Shown: piece after piece, positions 2,896 to 60,372 of the stretch | Layout: each line of letters begins with the position of its first letter | Position numbering within the stretch: position 1 is the stretch's first letter | DNA from: an uncultured Clostridia bacterium | GTDB taxonomy: Bacteria > Bacillota > Clostridia > UBA1381 | Direction: 5' to 3' | DNA: 60,372 bases | Assembly (NCBI GenBank): GCA_947591315.1 | Contig: CANQDD010000009.1 | Coordinates: forward strand, 37,518-97,889 | Program-made: the position numbers and the translations under genes | The notes under the pieces: generated by a model | Told to the model about the DNA's origin: nothing | The model's database searches: none | Seen by the model: the letters and a program-made list of their open reading frames with translations, nothing else

Positions 2896-2990
2896 GCATT
2901 TTTTGTATTTTTGGCGATAAAATTTTTTACAAAATTGCAGAAATTTATACCTGAATTTTGTGCAATTTTACATGTGGGGCGGTTGTGTGA

Positions 2991-3106
2991 GGCCCCCTTG
3001 TCAAAGGGGGCTGTCACGCGGAGCGTGACTGGGGGATTCCTTTTCTATTTTTACAAAGAATCCCTCCACCGCCTACGGCGGTCCCCCTCCCTTTAACAAG
3101 GGAGGC
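2991..3106. repeat. Interspersed palindromic repeat, type A, copy 1
   Basis: About 115 bp with inner and outer inverted repeats: GGCCCCCTTGTCAAAGGGGG at one end, CCTCCCTTTAACAAGGGAGG at the other, and GGATTCC...GGAATCC and short variable hairpins inside. It recurs in inverted orientation at 5999-6110. The variable hairpin arms differ between copies (CACGCGGAGCGTG here, CAGCTTTGCTG there), as expected of REP/MITE-like elements. Confidence 0.85.
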
Positions 3107-3130
3107 TAACGCCGCATCATTTTATTTCAT

Positions 3131-5885: not shown

Positions 5886-5998
5886 TGCTATTCTCCCCTA
5901 TGTAAGTTTTCAATCCATTTTACACTCTCCCGCGCCGTTTGTCAACACCGCAATTTAAAATAGCAAACCGTCCGCACCGCATGACCGCCCCTACGTGT

Positions 5999-6110
5999 GC
6001 CTCCCTTGTTAAAGGGAGGGGGACCGCCGAAGGCGGTGGAGGGATTCATCAAAAAACAAAAAGGAATCCCCCAGTCAGCTTTGCTGACAGCCCCCTTTGA
6101 CAAGGGGGCC
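5999..6110. repeat. Interspersed palindromic repeat, type A, copy 2
   Basis: Inverted relative to the copy at 2991-3106. Ends are CCTCCCTTGTTAAAGGGAGG and CCCCCTTTGACAAGGGGGCC, with the GGAATCCCCCAGTCA block inside. A fragment of the type C repeat (ATGACCGCCCCTACG) directly precedes it at 5980-5994. Confidence 0.85.
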
Positions 6111-6128
6111 TTTCATACGGACGGCATA

Positions 6129-23161: not shown

Positions 23162-23199
23162 TAGCTTAACGACAATTTTTGCGGACGGGGTTGTGATGC

Positions 23200-23222
23200 G
23201 GGCGGCCAATGACCGCCCCTAC
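23200..23222. repeat. Interspersed repeat type C, copy 1
   Basis: An inverted repeat built of GGGCGGCCAATGACCGCCCC and TAC. The same 23 bp occurs at 57610-57632 and, reversed, at 56688-56710, and a fragment lies at 5980-5994. Usually found next to type A or B elements. Confidence 0.85.
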
Positions 23223-23255
23223 AGTCGCAGCCGTGAATGTGCGGCGTTCTTCGTG

Positions 23256-23367
23256 AGGCTCCCCTTGAGGGGAGCTGTCGCCGAAGGCGACTGAGAGGTG
23301 GTTATAAAAAATCATTGCCACCTCTCCGTCATCGCTTCGCGATGCCACCTCTCCTCAAGGAGAGGCT
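23256..23367. repeat. Interspersed palindromic repeat type B, copy 1
   Basis: Outer arms GAGGCTCCCCTTGAGGGGAG and CCTCTCCTCAAGGAGAGGC; inner arms GAGAGGTGG and CCACCTCTC; short hairpins GTCGCCGAAGGCGAC and ATCGCTTCGCGAT. Closely matched by 57490-57604 in inverted orientation. MITE/REP-like. Confidence 0.85.
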
Positions 23368-52143: not shown

Positions 52144-52213
52144 TACCACACCCATTCACTTTACTACGGCGTTTGTTGCGTCGTTCACTTGACATGAGGG
52201 AACGGGTGTGGTA
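52144..52213. repeat. Operator-like inverted repeat around small-RNA promoter 1
   Basis: TACCACACCC (52144-52153) and GGGTGTGGTA (52204-52213); the right arm runs into the -10 box. The same pair occurs at 56751-56759 and 56782-56790 around the second small-RNA promoter, with a shorter gap. Suggests a shared regulator. Confidence 0.65.
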
Positions 52214-52217
52214 TAAT
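52189..52217 (+). promoter_or_regulatory. Promoter of small RNA 1
   Basis: TTGACA (52189-52194), 17 bp, TATAAT (52212-52217): full consensus, with no ORF of note behind it. Confidence 0.85.
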
Positions 52218-52223
52218 AGGCAT

Positions 52224-52308
52224 ATGAGAAGGCATCCGCTTTAAAGGCGGTTTGTCCTAGGTTTGCGAAAATAGCCGCATTCCTTGGTCGGGGCGGCTAT
52301 TTTTTTAT
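52224..52308 (+). ncRNA. Small RNA 1, putative antitoxin RNA facing the 24-residue peptide gene
   Basis: About 85 nt from a consensus promoter to a strong terminator (AATAGCCGC 52270-52278 with GCGGCTATT 52293-52301, then T6). It holds the hairpin CCGC-TTTAAAG-GCGG and an 11-mer GGCGGTTTGTC that is identical to one in the 5' region of the convergent toxin mRNA. The terminator part is antisense to the toxin stop codon region. Positions 52281-52309 are identical to 56863-56891 in small RNA 2. Confidence 0.6.
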
Positions 52309-52371
52309 GTTCCGAATTATTTCAAGAATGATAATTAACATTACCAGTTGAATAAGTAAATTCATGTCCAT
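52297..52371 (-). CDS. 24-residue hydrophobic peptide, putative type I toxin
   Basis: MDMNLLIQLVMLIIILEIIR plus NIKK: one membrane-spanning helix with a basic C-terminus, the plan of type I toxins. GGGGGTGA lies 6 bp before the ATG, and its own promoter lies 65-93 bp upstream. The stop codon sits in the 5' arm of the shared bidirectional terminator. Convergent with small RNA 1. Toxicity is inferred from size, composition and arrangement only. Confidence 0.6.
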   Translation of the reverse strand: MDMNLLIQLVMLIIILEIIRNIKK

Positions 52372-52435
52372 AAAATCACCCCCTTATTCAGAGAGTGACA
52401 AACCGCCCTTTGCATACCTTCCAAAGCCTGTAATT

Positions 52436-52517: not shown

Positions 52518-52534
52518 CGTGTAAGAAACGTGTA
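52518..52534 (+). repeat. Tandem CGTGTA pair upstream of the recombinase
   Basis: CGTGTA at 52518-52523 and 52529-52534, an 11-bp period. An identical pair with the same period lies at the recombinase 3' end (53763-53768, 53774-53779). The flanks are also alike (AATCGTGTAAG..ACGT). Possible recombinase arm-binding or autoregulatory sites. Confidence 0.5.
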
Positions 52535-52608: not shown

Positions 52609-53769
52609 ATGCCCATCTATAAAATGCAAGGAAAACGCGACGGATTACAGCGTTACCGCGTACGCATCAACTACACCGACAAAAACGGCAAAGCGCGTCA
52701 GCTTGACCGGGTGGCTTACGGCAGAGAGGCGGCGAAACAGCTTGAGGAACGCCTTAACCACGAGGTGAAGCCGATAGGCGCGCCCAACATGACGTTAAAC
52801 GAGCTTTACGCGGAATACATCGAAGCGCGCCGCCACGAGCTGCGTGAGAACACGCTCCGCGCGATACGAACCCGCTTAGAGCCGTACATACTGCCCGAAC
52901 TTGGCGCTTACACCCTGCGCGAGCTGACCGTGCCGCTGCTGCAAAAGTGGAAGTCGTGCTTTGACGAGCGCACAAACTCGCGCCGTCCTGACCGCAAGGT
53001 ATCGCTTATGCTGAAGCAGGACATATACGGCGAGCTCCGCACAATGCTCAACTATGCCGTGCGCATGGAATACCTGCCGCGCAATCCGCTCACGAGCGTG
53101 GGAAATTTCAAGAACCCGTACGAAATGAAGAAGGAAATGAAATACTACACGCCCGAACAGTTTGCGAAATTTATCGCGGTCGCGCGCGAGGAATCGGAGC
53201 GCGCCGAGGCGCGCGGCAACGACAAGGAGTGGAATTACTATGTATTTTTCAACATCGCCTTTTTCACCGGTATGCGCCGCGGCGAGATATGCGCGCTGAA
53301 ATGGTCGGACATCGACGGCGACATCATTCACGTCCGCCGCAGCCTGATACAGAAAATCAACGGCGGCGACATGGAAACGCCGACGAAAAGCAAAACGTCC
53401 ATACGCGACCTGCAAATGCCGCAGCCGCTCGTGAACATACTGCGCGACCACCGCGCGCGTCAGGAAAAGCTCGACGGCTTCACCGAGGAATTTCGTATAT
53501 GCGGCGGCGAGCGCAGCATTCGCACAACAACGACGGACTTCCGCAACACGCGCTATTCGCAGGGCGCGGGACTGGAGCGCATACGCGTCCATGATTTCCG
53601 CCATTCGCACGCGTCGCTGCTCGCGAACAACGGCATAAATATCCAGGAAATAGCGCGCAGGCTCGGCCATTCCGACATCGAGATGACGTGGAACATCTAT
53701 TCCCACCTCTATCCGCGCGAGGAGGAGCGCGCCGTAACGCTTATGAATAAATTATTTCCATTCGTGTAA
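52609..53769 (+). CDS. Tyrosine recombinase (phage-integrase family)
   Basis: 386 residues from the ATG behind AAAGGAGG. An N-terminal arm-binding-like domain (YRVRINYTDKNGKARQLDRVAYG), a SAM-like core-binding domain (MTLNELYAEYIEARRHELRENT), then the catalytic domain: Arg I in TGMRRGEICALKWSDI, Lys in PTKSKTSIRDL, HDFRHSHASLL (HXXR), LGHSDIEMT and the nucleophile Tyr in WNIYSHLY. Tn916-Int-like in plan. No excisionase, phage or conjugation genes are near. It ends 57 bp before the left inverted repeat of the surface cassettes, so it is the natural candidate for the invertase. Confidence 0.93.
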   Translation: MPIYKMQGKRDGLQRYRVRINYTDKNGKARQLDRVAYGREAAKQLEERLNHEVKPIGAPNMTLNELYAEYIEARRHELRENTLRAIRTRLEPYILPELGAYTLRELTVPLLQKWKSCFDERTNSRRPDRKVSLMLKQDIYGELRTMLNYAVRMEYLPRNPLTSVGNFKNPYEMKKEMKYYTPEQFAKFIAVAREESERAEARGNDKEWNYYVFFNIAFFTGMRRGEICALKWSDIDGDIIHVRRSLIQKINGGDMETPTKSKTSIRDLQMPQPLVNILRDHRARQEKLDGFTEEFRICGGERSIRTTTTDFRNTRYSQGAGLERIRVHDFRHSHASLLANNGINIQEIARRLGHSDIEMTWNIYSHLYPREEERAVTLMNKLFPFV

Positions 53770-53779
53770 AAATCGTGTA
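53763..53779 (+). repeat. Tandem CGTGTA pair at the recombinase 3' end
   Basis: CGTGTA at 53763-53768 (overlapping the stop codon) and 53774-53779, the same 11-bp period as the pair at 52518-52534. Confidence 0.5.
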
Positions 53780-53826: not shown

Positions 53827-53849
53827 GGTTCAGTTACGTCAGAGACAGT
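53827..53849 (+). repeat. Left inverted repeat of the putative invertible segment
   Basis: 23 bp that begin GGTTCAGTTACG and end CAGAGACAGT, identical to the reverse complement of 60309-60331. In both copies it is read in the same frame as G-S-V-T-S-E-T-V at the 5' edge of a surface-protein cassette. The flanks on both sides differ. Confidence 0.93.
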
Positions 53850-56613
53850 AGTTGTAACGAAGCCGGCGCTCCCCGCGAGTGCAGCTACCATCAAGGTAGA
53901 AGACAAGGACGTTTCTGCTGACAACGAGGAAGATAATGTTCCCTATACAGGCGACGAGCTTACAGTTGCGCTCACAGGCGTAGACACACCGGGCGCGCTC
54001 ACATATAAGTGGGAAGCTAACACGGGCGCAGAAGGCGCGTATGAGGCTATTACGGAAGCGGCAGAGGCAACAGATACGTTTACAATTCCCGACACTCTCT
54101 TAGGTAAGCAGATCAAGGTAACAATTACCGCTGCAAATTACAGCGGCGAGGCGTCTGTAACAACGGCTGTTATAGCTGAACCTGCAGTTCCGTATTCTGA
54201 GCATGCTACAAGGCACACAAGCGCAGGTGAAGCGGCAAAGTTCCAAAATGTCAGTGACAGTACGGTCTCAATAGAACAGGATGCGGCTTCAAATCTTGTG
54301 ACTGATAAGCCGGCAGGATTTGCCGAAAAAGTTCTAAAGGGCACAGGCAGAAAGACATCTATGACAAAATACATGCCATATAGTACCATATGCCCTGCTA
54401 ACGGCGCTAACATTGAGGTTGTATATGATTTCAGAATTGCAGGAAGAAACATGTATATAAGCGTTCGTGACAACGATGCAACCACTGATAACACCAACGA
54501 TAATGCTGACCATAGATTGTTTACCGTTAAGTGCGACAACAAAACATCTATCGCGCTTGAAACAAGCGAAGCGGCTAAATCGTTCACTACAGGAGGAGAT
54601 GACTCTTACCTGACGCTTTGGTTCCACGTTGAGGCTTCGATAAACATGTCGACAAAGAAGCAGACAATAAGAATTTACAAGTATAAGGCTAACAACAACT
54701 ACAAGAATGAAACACCGGTTATAGAAGCCGTAGATGTAGGATTCAGAGATACCAATGCTACGGGCGTTGCAGGTTTTGATGTATATTCGCCCACGAACGG
54801 TGCTAATGTCTACTTTGATAACTTCTATATCTATGACGAGACATACACAGAGCCTATGAGTATAACCTCATCGGATGCGACAGTTACTCCGGCGGCTGTC
54901 AGAACAAACGCCGAGGGTAAGCCTCTTGCCGATCAGGAAATCAGTATCGTGCCGAAAGCGAAAGCAGGTTATAAGGTTACGGGAGTTAAGGTAAACGGCG
55001 AAGACGCTGACAATGAAAGCGGATATACGTATACGACATCAGGTGACGAGACAGAACTTACTGTAACGGTTGAGTACGCTCGTGACAATGCAAACGACAT
55101 CGCTATCAGCGGTCCGACAATGATTAAGATACCCACTGCGGAAACGAATGAGGTAACATACACTGCTACCGTAACGAATGAGGCAGGCGATACGCTTGAT
55201 ACAACCACCGATAAAGTAACGTGGTCTAAGGAACTTATCGCCGAGAGCGGCGCGGCTAACATTGATAACGTTGAAGTTGATGCCGAGAGCGGTAAGGTAA
55301 CGGTTTCGACCGGTCAGGTAACGGGTGCATTCAACCTTGTTGCAACGGTTAAGAAAGATGTTACAGCCGATGATGGCGACACAAATAAGGTTACCAAAAA
55401 GTATAAAATTACGCTTACAAGTAATGATGTATACAGCGTAGAGGCTGCTCCGACAGAACACGGAAAGGTTCAGTTCAAGATTGGCGGCGAGGACGTTACA
55501 GCATTTGATTCAGCGGCAAATCTCACGATTACCACAGTTCCCGATGCGCATTATCATGTTGCGTCTATAACATGGCAGTCTGACGCATCTGACGATTTGG
55601 AAGCAACAACTTTAACGACCGAAAGCGCAAACAACTATACTCTTGCAGGCTCTGCTGTTAGTGCAAAGACAAACCCAACAAAGGTTACCGTAACAGTCGT
55701 ATTTGAGCTTGATAAGTTCACACTGACAAACAACAAGCATACAGCCCAAAACGGCAACCAGCTTAAAATTAAAATTGGTGACGCTCCTGATGAGAACACA
55801 GATGAAACAATCCAGGTTCCCTACGGCTCAAAGGTAACTGTTGTTCCGACAGTTAGTACAGAGAACGGTACCTACGGATTCGGTTATAAGATGACTGCAC
55901 TGACGTACAATGGCACAGACATCCTTGCTGCAAAGACGTTTACAATGCCTGATCAGGCAGTAACTGTAGACGCTACATTTGAGGACTGGGACGGCACATA
56001 CTATAGTGAAGACTTTAACGACTTTACCGGTAAGCAGAGCCTTGTTGACGCAGGATGGAGCATACACGGTGACGTGAATGGAGAAGACGCTACAATTATT
56101 AAGACAAAGACTGATGGTGATACCACTAAGTATGCGTACTTCACAAATAAGTCAACCAGCGGTAACAGAAGTGCAACCATTAACGTTAATGACAGCGTGA
56201 TAGACTCCGGTTCTGTTATTTTAGAGGCTGACCTTAATTTCAAGGCAGGCGGCGACCGTATAACATTCTTTAAGACGGGTGCGTTTACACTCGGAATAAG
56301 TAAGGAAGATAAGCTGTATGTAAATATAGATACTGCTAACGGAGATACACTTGATAAAGTATCGGATATAGTCAGCAGCACGGCTCAGAAGGAAAAGTGG
56401 GTACACTTAAAGGCTACTATGGACTACACTACCAAGAAGGTTAAGATTGAGATTAAGGATGCTGAATCAACAGATATTCTTACACAAACGGTTAATATGC
56501 CGGCAAACAACAACGGACTTCAGGTGTTAGATTTCAGCCTTGGAAGAAGTTCGGGTGCAATCGGTGTAGACAATATTTCCGTTAAGAAAACTACGGAAAG
56601 TGTAACAGCATAA
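53830..56613 (+). pseudogene. Silent surface-protein 3' cassette (no start codon)
   Basis: An open frame of 927 codons from the left repeat to a stop, without start codon or RBS. Modules: Ig-like (YKWEANTGAEGAYEAI... DTFTIPDTLLGKQIKVT), LamG/CBM-like with VYFDNFYIYDE, a Val/Thr-rich repeat (KVTGVKVNGEDADNESGYTY), a DUF-type Ig (ISGPTMIKIPTAETNEVTY), DVYSVEAAPTEHGKVQFK-type bacterial repeats, and a C-terminal CBM-like domain ending AIGVDNISVKK. Same order as the minus cassette with different sequence. Marked pseudogene only because it lacks a 5' end in this orientation; probably a stored alternative. AT-richer than neighbours. Confidence 0.85.
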
Positions 56614-56641
56614 TCTTACATCATCGAAATTGCATAATAAA

Positions 56642-56669
56642 AAAGGGAACGCAATGCGTTCCCTTTTTT
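56642..56669 (+). terminator. Intrinsic terminator of the plus-strand cassette
   Basis: GGGAACGC and GCGTTCCC form the stem (56645-56663), flanked by A- and T-runs. Confidence 0.85.
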
Positions 56670-56687
56670 GTGCGCGTGCGGCGTGAC

Positions 56688-56710
56688 GTAGGGGCGGTCA
56701 TTGGCCGCCC
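56688..56710. repeat. Interspersed repeat type C, copy 2
   Basis: Reverse complement of 23200-23222 and 57610-57632 (GTAGGGGCGGTCATTGGCCG-type). A second short palindrome, GGGCGAACCGCGTTCGCCC, follows at 56720-56738. Confidence 0.85.
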
Positions 56711-56750
56711 GCCTCCGTAGGGGCGAACCGCGTTCGCCCGCGCATAAAAA

Positions 56751-56790
56751 TACCACACCATTCACTTGACTTTTGTTAAACGGTGTGGTA
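56751..56790. repeat. Operator-like inverted repeat around small-RNA promoter 2
   Basis: TACCACACC (56751-56759) and GGTGTGGTA (56782-56790), the right arm entering the -10 box. Same arms as at 52144-52213. Confidence 0.65.
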
Positions 56791-56794
56791 TAAT
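56766..56794 (+). promoter_or_regulatory. Promoter of small RNA 2
   Basis: TTGACT (56766-56771), 17 bp, TATAAT (56789-56794). Confidence 0.8.
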
Positions 56795-56800
56795 AAAGAC

Positions 56801-56889
56801 ACAGAAAAGGCAAGACCTTCAACGGTTATGCCCAAAAATTTTAGCTATACAAAATAGCCGTATCCTTGGTCGGGGCGGCTATTTTTTTA
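56801..56889 (+). ncRNA. Small RNA 2, convergent with hicA-hicB
   Basis: About 90 nt. A hairpin GGCAAGACC-TTCAAC-GGTTATGCC is followed by the terminator stem AATAGCCG (56853-56860) / CGGCTATT (56876-56883) with T-run. The terminator block 56863-56891 is identical to that of small RNA 1. The hicB stop codon lies within the T-run, so the two transcripts meet at a shared bidirectional terminator. Only a nine-codon ORF without RBS is present. Confidence 0.55.
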
Positions 56890-57096
56890 TGCATACATCA
56901 GCTTACCGCGCGGGACGGGTATCTCTCTACCCTCGGCGCGCGCCGTATCGATCCATTCCTCAATAACGGTCTCGGCGTTTTGAATTGCTTCCGCGCGCGT
57001 TTTGCCGTCAGCCATGCAGCCAGCAAGCTCCGGCACTTCGGCGATAAACGCGTTGTCGTCCTTGCTCCAATAAAGTATGATTTCATAATTACGCAT
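56887..57096 (-). CDS. hicB: HicB-family antitoxin
   Basis: 69 residues. The partial RNase H-like HicB fold: MRNYEIILYWSKDDNAFIAEVPELAGCMADGKTRAEAI shows the family pattern of a strand, a D-x-x-(A/G)-F/Y-x-A-x-V-P-E-L-x-G-C turn, and the helix EAIQNAETVIEEWI. A short form without an obvious C-terminal DNA-binding domain, so operator binding, if any, may need the complex. Overlaps hicA by 8 bp. Confidence 0.92.
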   Translation of the reverse strand: MRNYEIILYWSKDDNAFIAEVPELAGCMADGKTRAEAIQNAETVIEEWIDTARAEGREIPVPRGKLMYA

Positions 57097-57349
57097 CTAA
57101 ATCCCCTCCCAAACCATATTTAACTATAATCCTTCTTATTTGTTTAACCTGATACGGTTTTGCGCTGTCGCCGTTAGGCTGTAAATTCAAAATTTCGTCA
57201 ACGCCCCGCTTGGTGTATATGAAGTGGTCGCCGCGTATTCGTTCATGGAAGCCGAGATAGCTCATCAACTGCCGCACATCGCTGAATTTAATGTTTGCGT
57301 CGCGGTTACCTTTTAGTATCATATATATTATTTTACGTATTTGGCTCAT
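57089..57349 (-). CDS. hicA: HicA-family mRNA interferase toxin
   Basis: 86 residues. dsRBD-like fold with the catalytic His in RGDHFIYTK, followed by ILNLQPNGDSAKPYQVKQIRRII, typical of HicA. It cleaves mRNA when HicB is lost. Toxin-first order with hicB. It lies inside the putative invertible segment, where a toxin-antitoxin pair would help to keep the segment. Confidence 0.92.
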   Translation of the reverse strand: MSQIRKIIYMILKGNRDANIKFSDVRQLMSYLGFHERIRGDHFIYTKRGVDEILNLQPNGDSAKPYQVKQIRRIIVKYGLGGDLDA

Positions 57350-57370
57350 TTTATACCACCCCGTGTATTC

Positions 57371-57399
57371 ATTTTATCACACCCCGTGCGCGGTGTCAA
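57371..57399 (-). promoter_or_regulatory. Promoter of hicA-hicB with tandem CACCCCGTG repeats
   Basis: Minus strand: TTGACA (57394-57399), 17 bp, TAAAAT (57371-57376). On the plus strand CACCCCGTG occurs twice, at about 57357 and 57380, on either side of the -10, a likely operator for autoregulation. Confidence 0.7.
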
Positions 57400-57402
57400 G
57401 GC
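57381..57402. repeat. 22-bp direct repeat, left copy
   Basis: ACCCCGTGCGCGGTGTCAAG plus GC, identical at 57636-57657. It contains the hicA -35 box. The two copies bracket 233 bp of palindromic repeats. Confidence 0.85.
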
Positions 57403-57489
57403 GCGGGACGTCGGGGTGAACAACACGCTAGTGTTGTAGGCGTGTTGCGAAGCAACAAACGCCGTGACAAAACGCCGTCCCCTACGGAA
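57403..57489. repeat. Unclassified palindrome-rich repeat
   Basis: Contains ACAACACGCTAGTGTTGT and TGTTGCGAAGCAACA palindromes inside GGGACG...CGTCCC arms. Seen once in this window; probably another interspersed element. Confidence 0.5.
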
Positions 57490-57604
57490 GCCTCTCCTTG
57501 AGGAGAGGTGGCATTGCACAGCAATGACGGAGAGGTGGCAGCAGAAATTTTGAAAACCACCTCTCAGTCGCTTTCAGCGACAGCTCCCCTCAAGGGGAGC
57601 CTCA
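57490..57604. repeat. Interspersed palindromic repeat type B, copy 2
   Basis: Inverted relative to 23256-23367: GCCTCTCCTTGAGGAGAGG at one end, CTCCCCTCAAGGGGAGCCTC at the other, CCACCTCTCAGTCGC inside. Confidence 0.85.
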
Positions 57605-57609
57605 CGCAC

Positions 57610-57632
57610 GGGCGGCCAATGACCGCCCCTAC
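57610..57632. repeat. Interspersed repeat type C, copy 3
   Basis: Same 23 bp as 23200-23222, same orientation, again directly beside a type B element. Confidence 0.85.
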
Positions 57633-57635
57633 GGT

Positions 57636-57657
57636 ACCCCGTGCGCGGTGTCAAGGC
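57636..57657. repeat. 22-bp direct repeat, right copy
   Basis: Identical to 57381-57402. Here the -35-like TGTCAA has no partner -10. Confidence 0.85.
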
Positions 57658-57663
57658 ACAAAG

Positions 57664-57693
57664 AAAGGGAGCGCATTCGCGCTCCCTTTTAAG
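57664..57693 (-). terminator. Intrinsic terminator of the minus-strand cassette
   Basis: GGGAGCGC (57667-57674) and GCGCTCCC (57679-57686) around ATTC, with T-rich sequence after it on the minus strand. Close in form to the terminator of the plus cassette. Confidence 0.8.
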
Positions 57694-57715
57694 TTATGTT
57701 TACACAAGATGATTA

Positions 57716-60372
57716 TTAGCCTTCGTCCTCAACGATAAGTTTAATCGATACTTCTTTGACAGTTGTCATTCTTCCTGTACCTGTACCGATAAACATCGTT
57801 ACCTGACCGCCCTTATTCTGCTGTGCGCCGTTCTTCATGAAGTAAGCGTTCATGTTAAGGTCTGTAAGTGCCGCGAAAGCGTTCTTACCTGTACCGTAAT
57901 CCCAGTTCTCTTTACCTGTGTCAATAACAACGGAAGCCTTACCGCCTGTTGTATTGATGTTGTTACCGTTAACCGTTGTCAAGTCTGAGATATAATTCTC
58001 AAACTGACCGAAATATTTGAACCATGTGTTCTTGTTCGCAACATCGGTCTGTGACGAAAGTGAGAGCTTCATGCCGTAAATCTTGTTCGCATACTCGGAA
58101 GCATCAATGTTGATAAGAGCCGCTGTTGAGCACTCATCATATTTCATATCCGATGAAGCAAGCTTATCTCCCGAAACAACCGCCTGACCTGCCTTAAATT
58201 CAGCATTTACCACGCAGTTTGTTTCAGGTGACTTGAAGTTTACTGACGAAGTCTTAATCTTATCAGCACTAAGCGCAACTTCCTGAACCTTTACAAACTC
58301 AGCATCAACAGTTACATCACCCGCAACCATCTTGAATGAGAATGTACCGTCAGCCGCTTCTGTGAGTGCGATAGGATCGGTGCCGTTCTTCTTAGCCGTA
58401 AGACTCTTTATAGCATAGTTATCACCAAGTGTCGGCGTAATTTTAACCGTATCTTCAACAGTCGCTGTTTCCTTGTCTACTTCAATCTTATTGCCGTTTT
58501 CGTCGTCTGTGCTATCGTTGTTCGTAATGTCATACGGTGTAGCCTTGAACTTAACTGTTACAACCGTATCGTCCTCAAGCGTGTTTGCATCGATCTTTGC
58601 GCTTGACTTATCAACATTTTTGGGCTCGCCTTCTGCGCCCATCGTGTAGCTTATTGACTCAACCTCATAACCTTCGTCAGGCGTCGTTTCAATCGTAAGC
58701 TCGGAACTCTTCTTGATGTAAGATACAGGTTGTGCATCTGCCTTAAGCTCAACCTTACCATGACCTTCGGCAACACCTGTTACCTTGTATACGTCCTCGT
58801 CTACGAATTCAACCGTAGCATACGCGGGTGTCTTACCCTCGGGGCTCTTAACATCTGTTACAACTTCAGCCTTTACACGAATCTTGGATGCTGTTTCTCC
58901 GGCTGCAGCCGCGAGAGCACCTGTAAGCGATGTGCCTGTAATAGCAGTGCCATCCTGAACCGTAGCAGCTTGATCCTGAGTTTCATCTGCGAGCGACCAT
59001 GTAATCTCTACATTGTCGTCATCAGTGAATGTATACTCGCCTGCCTTAACGATAGCCTTATAATCCTTAGTCGTGCCCTTCTTAATCATAGTAGGACCGT
59101 CTACTTTGATTTCGGTTACATCAGCTCTTACGAATGTAGCGTCGATTTCGATCTTACCTTCTGTTTCTTCGCCCGTTACAGTGTACTTGTAGCCTCCATT
59201 GTCTGTGACCTCTTCACCGTTAACCGTAACCTTATCAAGCTTCTTGCCGGGATCAGCCGTCGGTGTGATTGTGATTACGTTATCCTTAACCGCAACTGCG
59301 GGAGCGTCTGTCGCAATCTTACCGCCTGTCGGCGTCTTAACCGTTACGGGGATAAGACCTTCATCTGTCGAGTTGATCTGTACATTGTCAATCCTGAACG
59401 GAGCCGCGGAATAACCGTATCTCGCCGCAAGTCTGTTAAACGCTGTTGCGCCCGAAATGTCACCCGACGTCTTCGCAACGCAAACGGGGTCACCGCCTGC
59501 AATATTGAATACGAGAACGTCTACATGAGGAGTAGGCTCAGCCGTGTACTTAAGATATATCTTAAGTTTTGTGCTGTTGGTGCCAACATCGGCAACCTTA
59601 ACGGCGTCTGTCGCACCTGCCTTTACGGTTACACCCGTATCGCCCTGCGCAAATACCGTCAAGATTGAGTGACCTGTAAGCGTCATGCCTGCCTCGTCAT
59701 CCGAAATGATGAGGTATACGTTTCTGTTCTTTCCTGACTCTATATCAGGCGTGAAGTCGAATATCATTTCAAGGTTCTTAGCCTGAGATATAACTTCGGG
59801 GAATACCTTGTAGTCTGTCTGCTTGTCAGCAGTACTGTTTGCATCAGCTTTGTTATTTAATATAAGCTCACCGTTCGAGTTTGCAACGGAGCCACTCTTG
59901 TACGGTACAAATCCCCATGTGTCGCCTTCTGTCGAGAAGTCATTCTTGTCGATTTCTGTACCTGCAAGTGTCGGAACAGGAATGTCCGCAACCGCCAATG
60001 TTGTTACGCTTACGCCTTCTTCAGCGTAGCCTTCAGCCGTAGCGGTTACCTTAATGAACTTGCCCAGCTGGCTGGTGGGGATGTCATATGTTTCGCCCTC
60101 TGCTTCTGCAATCGGTGTGAAGTTGCCTTCAGCCGTGTCGCCAACCGACCAAGCATAGGTTACTTCAACATCGTCCTCACCTTCCGCAGGTGCATACGCA
60201 GCCGTAAGTGTATCAAATACCTTCGGAGCTGTCTCTGTTGCGTCTACAGTGTCTACCTTTAATGTAAGCGTTCCAGCCAATTCCGGATCCGGTGCAGCCG
60301 TTACTGTCACTGTCTCTGACGTAACTGAACCAGTGTAGTTTGCGTCTGTATCAGCCGGTTTAGCAACAACTT
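57716..60372 (-). CDS. Large modular surface protein, expressed-orientation 3' cassette (5' part outside window)
   Basis: 884 codons are visible and the frame stays open to the right edge (VVAKPADTDANYTG-SVTSETV at the repeat), so the start lies outside. Modules: Ig-like (TYAWSVGDTAEGNFTPIAEA... IPTSQLGKFIKVT), LamG/CBM-like (WGFVPY... APFRIDNVQINS), a TADPGKKLDKVTVNGEEV repeat, an Ig with DGPTMIKKGTTKDYK, DVYKVTGVAEGHGKVELK-type bacterial repeats, and a C-terminal CBM-like domain (TCVVNAEFKAGQ-like to end). Probably binds glycans outside the cell. The only ORF-internal GTG (60310) is not a real start. Confidence 0.88.
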   Translation of the reverse strand, partial: VVAKPADTDANYTGSVTSETVTVTAAPDPELAGTLTLKVDTVDATETAPKVFDTLTAAYAPAEGEDDVEVTYAWSVGDTAEGNFTPIAEAEGETYDIPTSQLGKFIKVTATAEGYAEEGVSVTTLAVADIPVPTLAGTEIDKNDFSTEGDTWGFVPYKSGSVANSNGELILNNKADANSTADKQTDYKVFPEVISQAKNLEMIFDFTPDIESGKNRNVYLIISDDEAGMTLTGHSILTVFAQGDTGVTVKAGATDAVKVADVGTNSTKLKIYLKYTAEPTPHVDVLVFNIAGGDPVCVAKTSGDISGATAFNRLAARYGYSAAPFRIDNVQINSTDEGLIPVTVKTPTGGKIATDAPAVAVKDNVITITPTADPGKKLDKVTVNGEEVTDNGGYKYTVTGEETEGKIEIDATFVRADVTEIKVDGPTMIKKGTTKDYKAIVKAGEYTFTDDDNVEITWSLADETQDQAATVQDGTAITGTSLTGALAAAAGETASKIRVKAEVVTDVKSPEGKTPAYATVEFVDEDVYKVTGVAEGHGKVELKADAQPVSYIKKSSELTIETTPDEGYEVESISYTMGAEGEPKNVDKSSAKIDANTLEDDTVVTVKFKATPYDITNNDSTDDENGNKIEVDKETATVEDTVKITPTLGDNYAIKSLTAKKNGTDPIALTEAADGTFSFKMVAGDVTVDAEFVKVQEVALSADKIKTSSVNFKSPETNCVVNAEFKAGQAVVSGDKLASSDMKYDECSTAALINIDASEYANKIYGMKLSLSSQTDVANKNTWFKYFGQFENYISDLTTVNGNNINTTGGKASVVIDTGKENWDYGTGKNAFAALTDLNMNAYFMKNGAQQNKGGQVTMFIGTGTGRMTTVKEVSIKLIVEDEG
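60309..60331 (-). repeat. Right inverted repeat of the putative invertible segment
   Basis: Exact reverse complement of 53827-53849, at the same codon phase within the minus-strand surface gene. Bounds a segment of 6505 bp. Confidence 0.93.

Follow-up and report, generated by a model that had tools for sequence, protein, structure and literature searches.

The cwpV gene of C. difficile is reportedly a surface-protein switch that the tyrosine recombinase RecV inverts at inverted repeats, and gene-altering programmed inversions (Milman, Yelin, Kishony) and intragenic inversions (Chanin et al.) form, judging by the titles of those studies, the broader class that also covers the present case. The pilV shufflon of IncI plasmids has a constant 5' part, inverted alternative 3' open reading frames (ORFs), repeats and an adjacent tyrosine recombinase, Rci, and is hard to assemble (PMC5430464, PMC11852207). 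A study of Ureaplasma UU172 (mba-type) describes a chromosomal inversion that fuses an N-terminal part in frame to alternative C-terminal parts of a surface antigen; the enzyme was not identified there, and Xer-like ones were suspected (PMC3047005). Inversion switches of Clostridia and gut invertons lie mostly upstream of genes, as far as the excerpts of two reports go (PMC5903667, PMC11892184); one of them also mentions gene-intersecting invertons, as well as 33 grouped invertons (32 from Clostridia) that are associated with a group of tyrosine recombinases (PMC11892184). Here we describe a 6.5-kb segment, positions 53827-60331 of a 60,372-nucleotide stretch of DNA from an uncultured Clostridia bacterium (hereafter the window), which holds two facing cassettes for the C-terminal part of a presumably secreted protein between inverted sites, next to a tyrosine recombinase gene. 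We read the segment as an invertible 3'-end switch turned by that recombinase, with a probability of about 0.92.

In the proposed mechanism, the adjacent recombinase would recombine the two inverted sites and turn the whole segment round. One constant gene beyond the right site would be fused in frame to either cassette (871 or 928 residues), the unused cassette would park beside the recombinase without a start codon, and each cassette would supply its own stop and hairpin. The segment is very probably flipped by its neighbouring recombinase, alternating the tails of one large secreted protein; the recombinase is presumably the acting enzyme, and presumably active in this organism.

Results

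Inversion sites and reading frame

A 23-bp exact inverted repeat occupies 53827-53849 and 60309-60331 (Table 1) and extends to 33 nt at 88%. Exact inverted pairs of this length are expected about 2.6e-5 times in the window by chance, base composition being ignored. G-S-V-T-S-E-T-V is the in-frame reading of both copies. Across six genomes (relatives are cited below by G numbers, contigs by C and loci by L), 18 of 18 junctions read G-[ST]-V in frame, in a list that leaves out G005, G019 and the ends of C43 and C26. The crossover in G022 could be narrowed to 13 bp, CAGTTACGTCAGA. A search with the 22-mer of the repeat, allowing up to three mismatches, found no further copy in the window's own genome, which has two sites only.

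The plus cassette lies in a 947-codon open frame that begins right after the recombinase stop. There is no ATG, GTG or TTG in its first 120 codons, and an ATG first appears at codon 198. As proteins the two cassettes show a relationship (28% identity across 766 aligned columns); as DNA they are not alike. All of this agrees with a sequence-only reading of the window made before our analysis, which had reported the exact repeat at these coordinates, its common reading frame, two facing cassettes of different sequence, the lack of a start codon in the plus cassette, and a recombinase ending 57 bp outside the left repeat; its stop indeed ends at 53769. That reading also had the minus cassette running off the window into a gene beyond it. 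The cassette does so, and here a correction applies: the gene lies beyond the contig as well. The right end of the window is the end of contig C9, 41 bp past the right repeat, so the constant N-terminal gene cannot be read in this genome. By eye, the frame of these last bases (KPADTDANYT) resembles APEADETYT of the N-terminal gene of G022.

Table 1. Features of the proposed switch and its surroundings (window coordinates).
Feature	Position	Strand	Basis
Recombination site, left copy	53827..53849	+	Inverted-repeat and frame analysis
Recombination site, right copy, in frame	60309..60331	-	Inverted-repeat and frame analysis
Recombinase-linked (silent) C-terminal cassette, 928 aa from site	53827..56613	+	Open frame; cassette comparison
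N-terminus-linked (expressed) C-terminal cassette, 871 aa from site	57716..60331	-	Open frame; cassette comparison
Last 41 bp of constant N-terminal gene before contig end	60332..60372	-	Open frame, by eye
Tyrosine recombinase, 386 aa, proposed invertase	52609..53769	+	Pfam, PDB relatives, clade of 8
Paired CGTGTA repeat, arm-type-like, upstream of recombinase	52518..52534	+	91 bp before start
Second paired CGTGTA repeat, overlapping recombinase stop	53763..53779	+	64 bp before site
Hairpin with T run after plus cassette, likely terminator	56639..56669	+	15-bp perfect inverted repeat
Hairpin after minus cassette, likely terminator	57663..57690	-	Terminator scan
Small-RNA-like unit, promoter-like TTGACT-17-TATAAT and terminator-like stem	56766..56889	+	Pattern matches only
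hicB-like antitoxin gene	56887..57096	-	Pfam HicB_lk_antitox, 35.6 bits (cut-off 27)
hicA-like toxin gene of toxin-antitoxin pair	57089..57349	-	Pfam HicA_toxin, 24.7 bits (cut-off 27)

Architecture of the locus in relatives

The whole locus is contained within one 41-kb contig of G027, in the order N-terminal gene with a site inside it, its cassette, hicAB, facing cassette, second site and recombinase. The N-terminal gene of G027 has a start codon and a signal-like N-terminus. In G024, four sites are spread over two contigs whose overlap, at a palindromic hairpin, is exactly 77 bases, so that the contigs are probably neighbours. The recombinase comes first along them, followed by cassette D, facing cassette C, back-to-back cassette B and finally a facing cassette joined to the N-terminal gene. 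In G004, a member of another genus, four contigs together carry six exact sites and a seventh with two mismatches. The N-terminal gene contains one of them and another follows the recombinase; the rest precede cassettes or adjoin genes assigned by Pfam to purine synthesis, where inversions would move housekeeping genes. G024 and G004 would thus each have at least four exchangeable tails.

The N-terminal gene is complete in G027, G024 and G004 and present up to the site in G025 and G022. In relatives the constant gene has a start codon, a signal peptide and roughly 840-1,140 residues before the site, and the cassette tails across the set measure 695-1,597 residues. The contigs carrying this gene in G019 and G015 end inside it, not at the site.

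Several further features of these loci were seen in passing. In G027 a frame break interrupts the N-terminus-linked cassette shortly before it ends (L040:10700-11470), after which a 243-codon frame continues. The purine-synthesis genes of G004 adjoin sites on C23 and C43 (L107, L109; AICARFT by Pfam, a purE-like start by eye), and a promoter-like sequence of about 65 bp is common to the two loci. Full-length relatives of the N-terminal gene in G020, G026 and G014 (L111, L113, L115) have no site match in the fetched stretch and possibly represent a non-switching state. Weak matches to the site pattern (one or two mismatches) in G014, G017, G023, G026 and G000:C15 were set aside by eye; that of G026 sits in a 5,009-codon secreted-protein frame.

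Recombinase clade and arm-type repeats

The recombinase scores 83.4 bits against Phage_integrase (PF00589) and 34.2 bits against the SAM-like N-terminal Phage_int_SAM_3 (PF14659). By eye, this protein (P0003) contains the stretches RRGEICALKW, HDFRHSH, LGHSDIE and NIYSHL, which may correspond to parts of the catalytic R-K-HxxR-H-Y motif of active tyrosine recombinases. Relatives in the PDB are 3nkh (an integrase), 5hxy (XerA) and 6emy ('Int protein' chains), the last of which we take to be the Tn1549 integrase; Pfam, NCBIfam and the PDB together offer general integrase or Xer relatives only. The recombinase found 24 matches in 16 of 70 genomes of the family, four relatives being 85-99% identical, and no relative among the viral contigs scanned.

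A tree of 23 relatives was built from 22 of the 24 matches and G071, leaving out the partial matches L031 and L039. The eight site-adjacent recombinases form one clade (support 100/98), where G005 and G019 count as site-adjacent on a partial motif only. Each member is followed by a site-like sequence, with a recombinase-site spacing that recurs in all eight genomes, and a second, inverted or further copy of the site was found for six. Outside the clade, 13 of 15 recombinases have a tRNA gene within 300 bp downstream (G055 and G071 do not), among them the nearest outgroup, G050. No tRNA gene was found downstream of any of the eight, of which G025, G022 and G019 offered only 94-141 bp. The recombinase appears to have evolved from the type of integrase found next to tRNA genes.

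Paired CGTGTA-like repeats, reminiscent of arm-type sites, flank the recombinase gene on both sides in seven of the eight clade members. Such a repeat lies within 200 bp upstream of seven of eight clade recombinases and none of the 15 others; downstream, eight of the 15 others have one. The surroundings of 18 sites were scanned for such repeats, over at most 400 bp in each direction and sometimes much less at contig ends. A forward repeat stands 62-64 bp before the site at 6/6 recombinase-linked sites and 0/12 other sites, and one looser match in reverse lies beside the N-terminal site of G004. We infer that the recombinase began as an island-type integrase, shed its island and came to act between sites in a host gene. 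In G024 (L077:2820-3464), the 35 nt upstream of two back-to-back silent sites are identical and finish with a pyrimidine-rich tract. By eye, similar tracts precede recombinase-linked sites and not N-terminal-gene sites; the tract may be a second recognition element.

Contig ends and the two orientations

Four exact overlaps (C57/C105, C17/C8, C23/C43 and C6/C26), rather than assembly records, gave us the value k=77. In a de Bruijn graph of this k, a repeat of 13-33 bp should break a contig only where there is more than one read-supported continuation or where coverage failed. In G025 the segment forms a contig of its own, C26 (8,140 bp), and its two ends are exact inverted copies of each other over 30 bp. 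The recombinase contig of G025, C10, ends precisely with that repeat, and its N-terminal contig, C6, overlaps C26 by exactly 77 bases. We rebuilt the k=77 graph for G025. With both orientations, one unitig was identical to C26 1-8140 and the recombinase unitig ended at the C10 end; one orientation gave a single 9,340-bp unitig, and the only three-junction set tried gave 8,186. G025 is apparently present in both orientations at once, and the agreement between its contig ends and the graph is indirect evidence for both orientations in a population.

Two further genomes behave similarly. The N-terminal contig of G022, C57, stops at the last base common to two cassettes and overlaps C105 by 77, and the end of C104, the recombinase contig, lies 77 bases past the first base that it has in common with the N-terminal flank; all three contig ends are at predicted k=77 nodes. 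One cassette head of G004 (71 identical bases) is joined to two flanks that share only six bases, with 77-base ends, and most contig ends in this genome fall on k=77 nodes. Over six genomes, 12 of 22 site occurrences lie within 80 bp of a contig end, compared with 0.096 expected; with overlapping ends merged, the count is 8 of 18 places (0.079 expected). These counts were entered by hand, with rounded contig numbers.

Comparison between species gives a second view of orientation. The first 375 bp of the silent cassette in the window match the N-terminus-linked cassette of G022 at 92% identity, so this head has changed sides. In the window the hicAB pair is directed towards the recombinase; in G022, G025 and G027 it is directed towards the N-terminal gene. 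Its DNA matches at 94-95%, covering only 360 of 525 bases in G025; 7 of 16 genus genomes have a match, of which only four could be oriented. The central claim of the sequence-only reading, an inversion that swaps the C-terminus in frame, is supported by the G027 locus, the contig ends of G025, G022 and G004, the G022 head and the recombinase clade. The relatives with at least four sites, the kinship of the recombinase with tRNA-adjacent integrases and the arm-type repeats go beyond that reading.

Evidence against inversion by this recombinase, and alternatives

Several observations count against our interpretation. The window's genome was assembled in one orientation only, and the N-terminal gene is absent from its bin, which is 85% complete and was searched with the N-terminal part from G025. 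Between the inner edge of the repeat and the end of the window contig there are 64 bases, not 77; an overlap in G004 measures 65; and the contigs of G024 and G027 are unbroken at any site. The graph was rebuilt from pieces fused at the same contig ends that it examines, so all it can reveal is whether nodes fall on those ends, and they do. C6 of G025 runs 47 bases past the bare unitig, reaching within one base of the end of the C26 bridge, which is what would be seen if a single branch had been retained during assembly. The same picture would arise from two co-resident strains, each fixed in one of the two orientations, yet this would still imply inversion. No second site was found for G005 or G019, and G019 is without arm-type repeats. 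The G022 cassette is a mosaic, the rest of it being 76% identical over 898 bp to the N-terminus-linked cassette of the window; such mosaics indicate that homologous exchange has also mixed tails. Finally, a 39-nt inverted repeat (87%) surrounds hicAB and could flip hicAB alone, for which reason the orientation of hicAB is supporting evidence only.

One alternative extends inversion: cassette exchange may go beyond a two-way flip, with excision or long-range inversion among dispersed sites. The seven sites of G004 on four contigs (six exact, one with two mismatches), its one head on two flanks, the four sites of G024 and the confinement of arm-type repeats to the recombinase-linked site all favour such exchange. 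The window's genome has only two sites, for which a two-way flip suffices, although in a bin that is 85% complete further sites could be missing. We consider this wider exchange unlikely. A related reading is also rather unlikely in our estimate: a domesticated integrase, pared down to its gene and the two arm-type repeats around it, might run a chromosome-wide exchange of C-terminal cassettes in a family of uncultured Clostridia, with the recombinase-linked site as its favoured partner, akin to an integron platform. In such an exchange, silent tails at several loci (in G004, by purine-synthesis genes) might feed one expressed secreted protein.

It is very improbable that the facing cassettes arose by misassembly or by collapsed duplication of two loci, the repeat being a conserved coding motif. 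The assembly is a draft, the N-terminal gene is missing from the bin and paralogous secreted proteins abound; in G025, moreover, the two cassettes resemble each other in head and tail, at about 82% over stretches of 209 and 513 bp. Against this, G027 shows the same architecture within its 41-kb contig and the recombinase-site spacing recurs in eight genomes. A comparison of 14 cassettes, none of them from G025, gave a single DNA match of more than 60 bp within a genome, between G024 A and B, and the G004 contig is unbroken at the distal end of the doubly joined cassette, unlike a collapsed duplicate.

Switching might also be real and due to general homologous recombination between short repeats, not to this recombinase. 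The mosaic cassettes show that homologous exchange occurs. The stretch common to the junctions is 13 to 33 bp, which is short for RecA exchange, the junctions break at a fixed core, and they are linked to one recombinase clade; we regard this explanation as highly unlikely. Least tenable is an integrase-bearing mobile island inserted in a surface gene, with the plus cassette as a 3' remnant and nothing inverting: the nearest outgroups of the recombinase do adjoin tRNA genes, as island integrases do, but the sites are inverted, not direct, the arm-type repeats bracket the recombinase gene alone in seven of eight genomes, the G025 contig ends fit all four junctions, and G024 and G004 have many sites.

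Hairpins, hicAB and small-RNA-like units

A hairpin follows each cassette, in keeping with the earlier claim that each ends in its own terminator; their identity as terminators is less secure. The terminator scan omitted the hairpin at 56639-56669 and lists that at 57663-57690 on the plus strand only, although by eye its stem reads on the minus strand too. The scan found seven terminator-like sites in all, compared with 8.4 in shuffles, and without enrichment the terminator labels rest on position.

The sequence-only reading had placed hicAB and a small RNA inside the segment. HicB passes its Pfam cut-off and HicA falls just below; NCBIfam gives a name to neither. The hicB-like gene is kept in the segments of G022, G025 and G027. 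The putative small RNA is a pattern match, for which no Rfam family exceeded its threshold; the sub-threshold Rfam matches were Atu_C8 and BsrG only. A similar unit is located outside the segment, at 52189-52299. It is faced by a frame for a small hydrophobic peptide at 52297-52393 on the minus strand (MDMNLLIQLVMLIIILEIIRNIKK), which follows a promoter-like site at 52464-52436. The peptide frame and the facing unit may be a type I toxin-antitoxin pair, with the BsrG match below threshold. Other long inverted repeats in the window (2990-3111 / 5994-6111; 23195-23367 / 56688-57606; up to 63 nt, 89%) resemble miniature elements of the dispersed kind.

Protein domains of the tails

By Pfam, the minus cassette contains an InlB-type B-repeat (36.4 bits), a domain also present in the four N-terminus-bearing proteins scanned, and no domain was found in the plus cassette or the G022 cassette. 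Both cassettes of G025 end in a CBM_4_9 carbohydrate-binding domain, which the Pfam scan found in neither window cassette. A rhamnogalacturonan lyase with S-layer domains is encoded about 4.7 kb from the recombinase of G025. The switched product is probably a secreted, possibly glycan-binding protein of changing specificity. Altered glycan-binding or adhesive specificity is a reasonable conjecture for the effect of the switch; immune or phage evasion is just as conjectural.

Discussion

If our interpretation is correct, uncultured Clostridia have a shufflon-like protein-tail switch that swaps close to half of a very large secreted protein, operated by a recombinase that looks repurposed from tRNA-adjacent integrases. 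The carbohydrate-binding tails of G025 and the nearby rhamnogalacturonan lyase suggest, without showing, bet-hedging over plant or host glycans. The locus offers new recombinase-site pairs for testing, and it illustrates how inversion can leave its trace in published assemblies, as contig ends that lie at a constant k-mer distance.

The principle is known, and we claim novelty for the variant only: its host group, tail size, enzyme kinship and dispersed cassettes. No clostridial shufflon of this sort appeared among the literature matches listed, which comprised titles and abstract openings, with preprints and most subscription papers outside their scope.

The clostridial switches resemble the window in having a tyrosine recombinase, inverted repeats and surface proteins; they differ in being mostly upstream of genes, going by the excerpts of two reports (PMC5903667, PMC11892184). 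The recombinase has the Phage_integrase catalytic and SAM-like N-terminal domains of Tn916/Tn1549-like or island integrases and, unlike an island integrase, belongs to a clade with no tRNA gene found downstream. Ureaplasma UU172 shows the same in-frame C-terminal swap, in other bacteria and with other proteins. The IncI shufflon comes closest in layout, with its constant 5' part, inverted 3' ORFs and adjacent recombinase, a likeness of architecture. A constant 5' part and alternative 3' ORFs in one frame, as in a shufflon, are what we observe. The tails of the pilV shufflon are short pilin tips. The present locus is chromosomal, its tails are 695-1,597 residues long, it carries hicAB inside, and its recombinase is nested among tRNA-adjacent integrases. 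A shufflon of several segments has more than two sites; the window's genome has two, and its relatives G024 and G004 have more.

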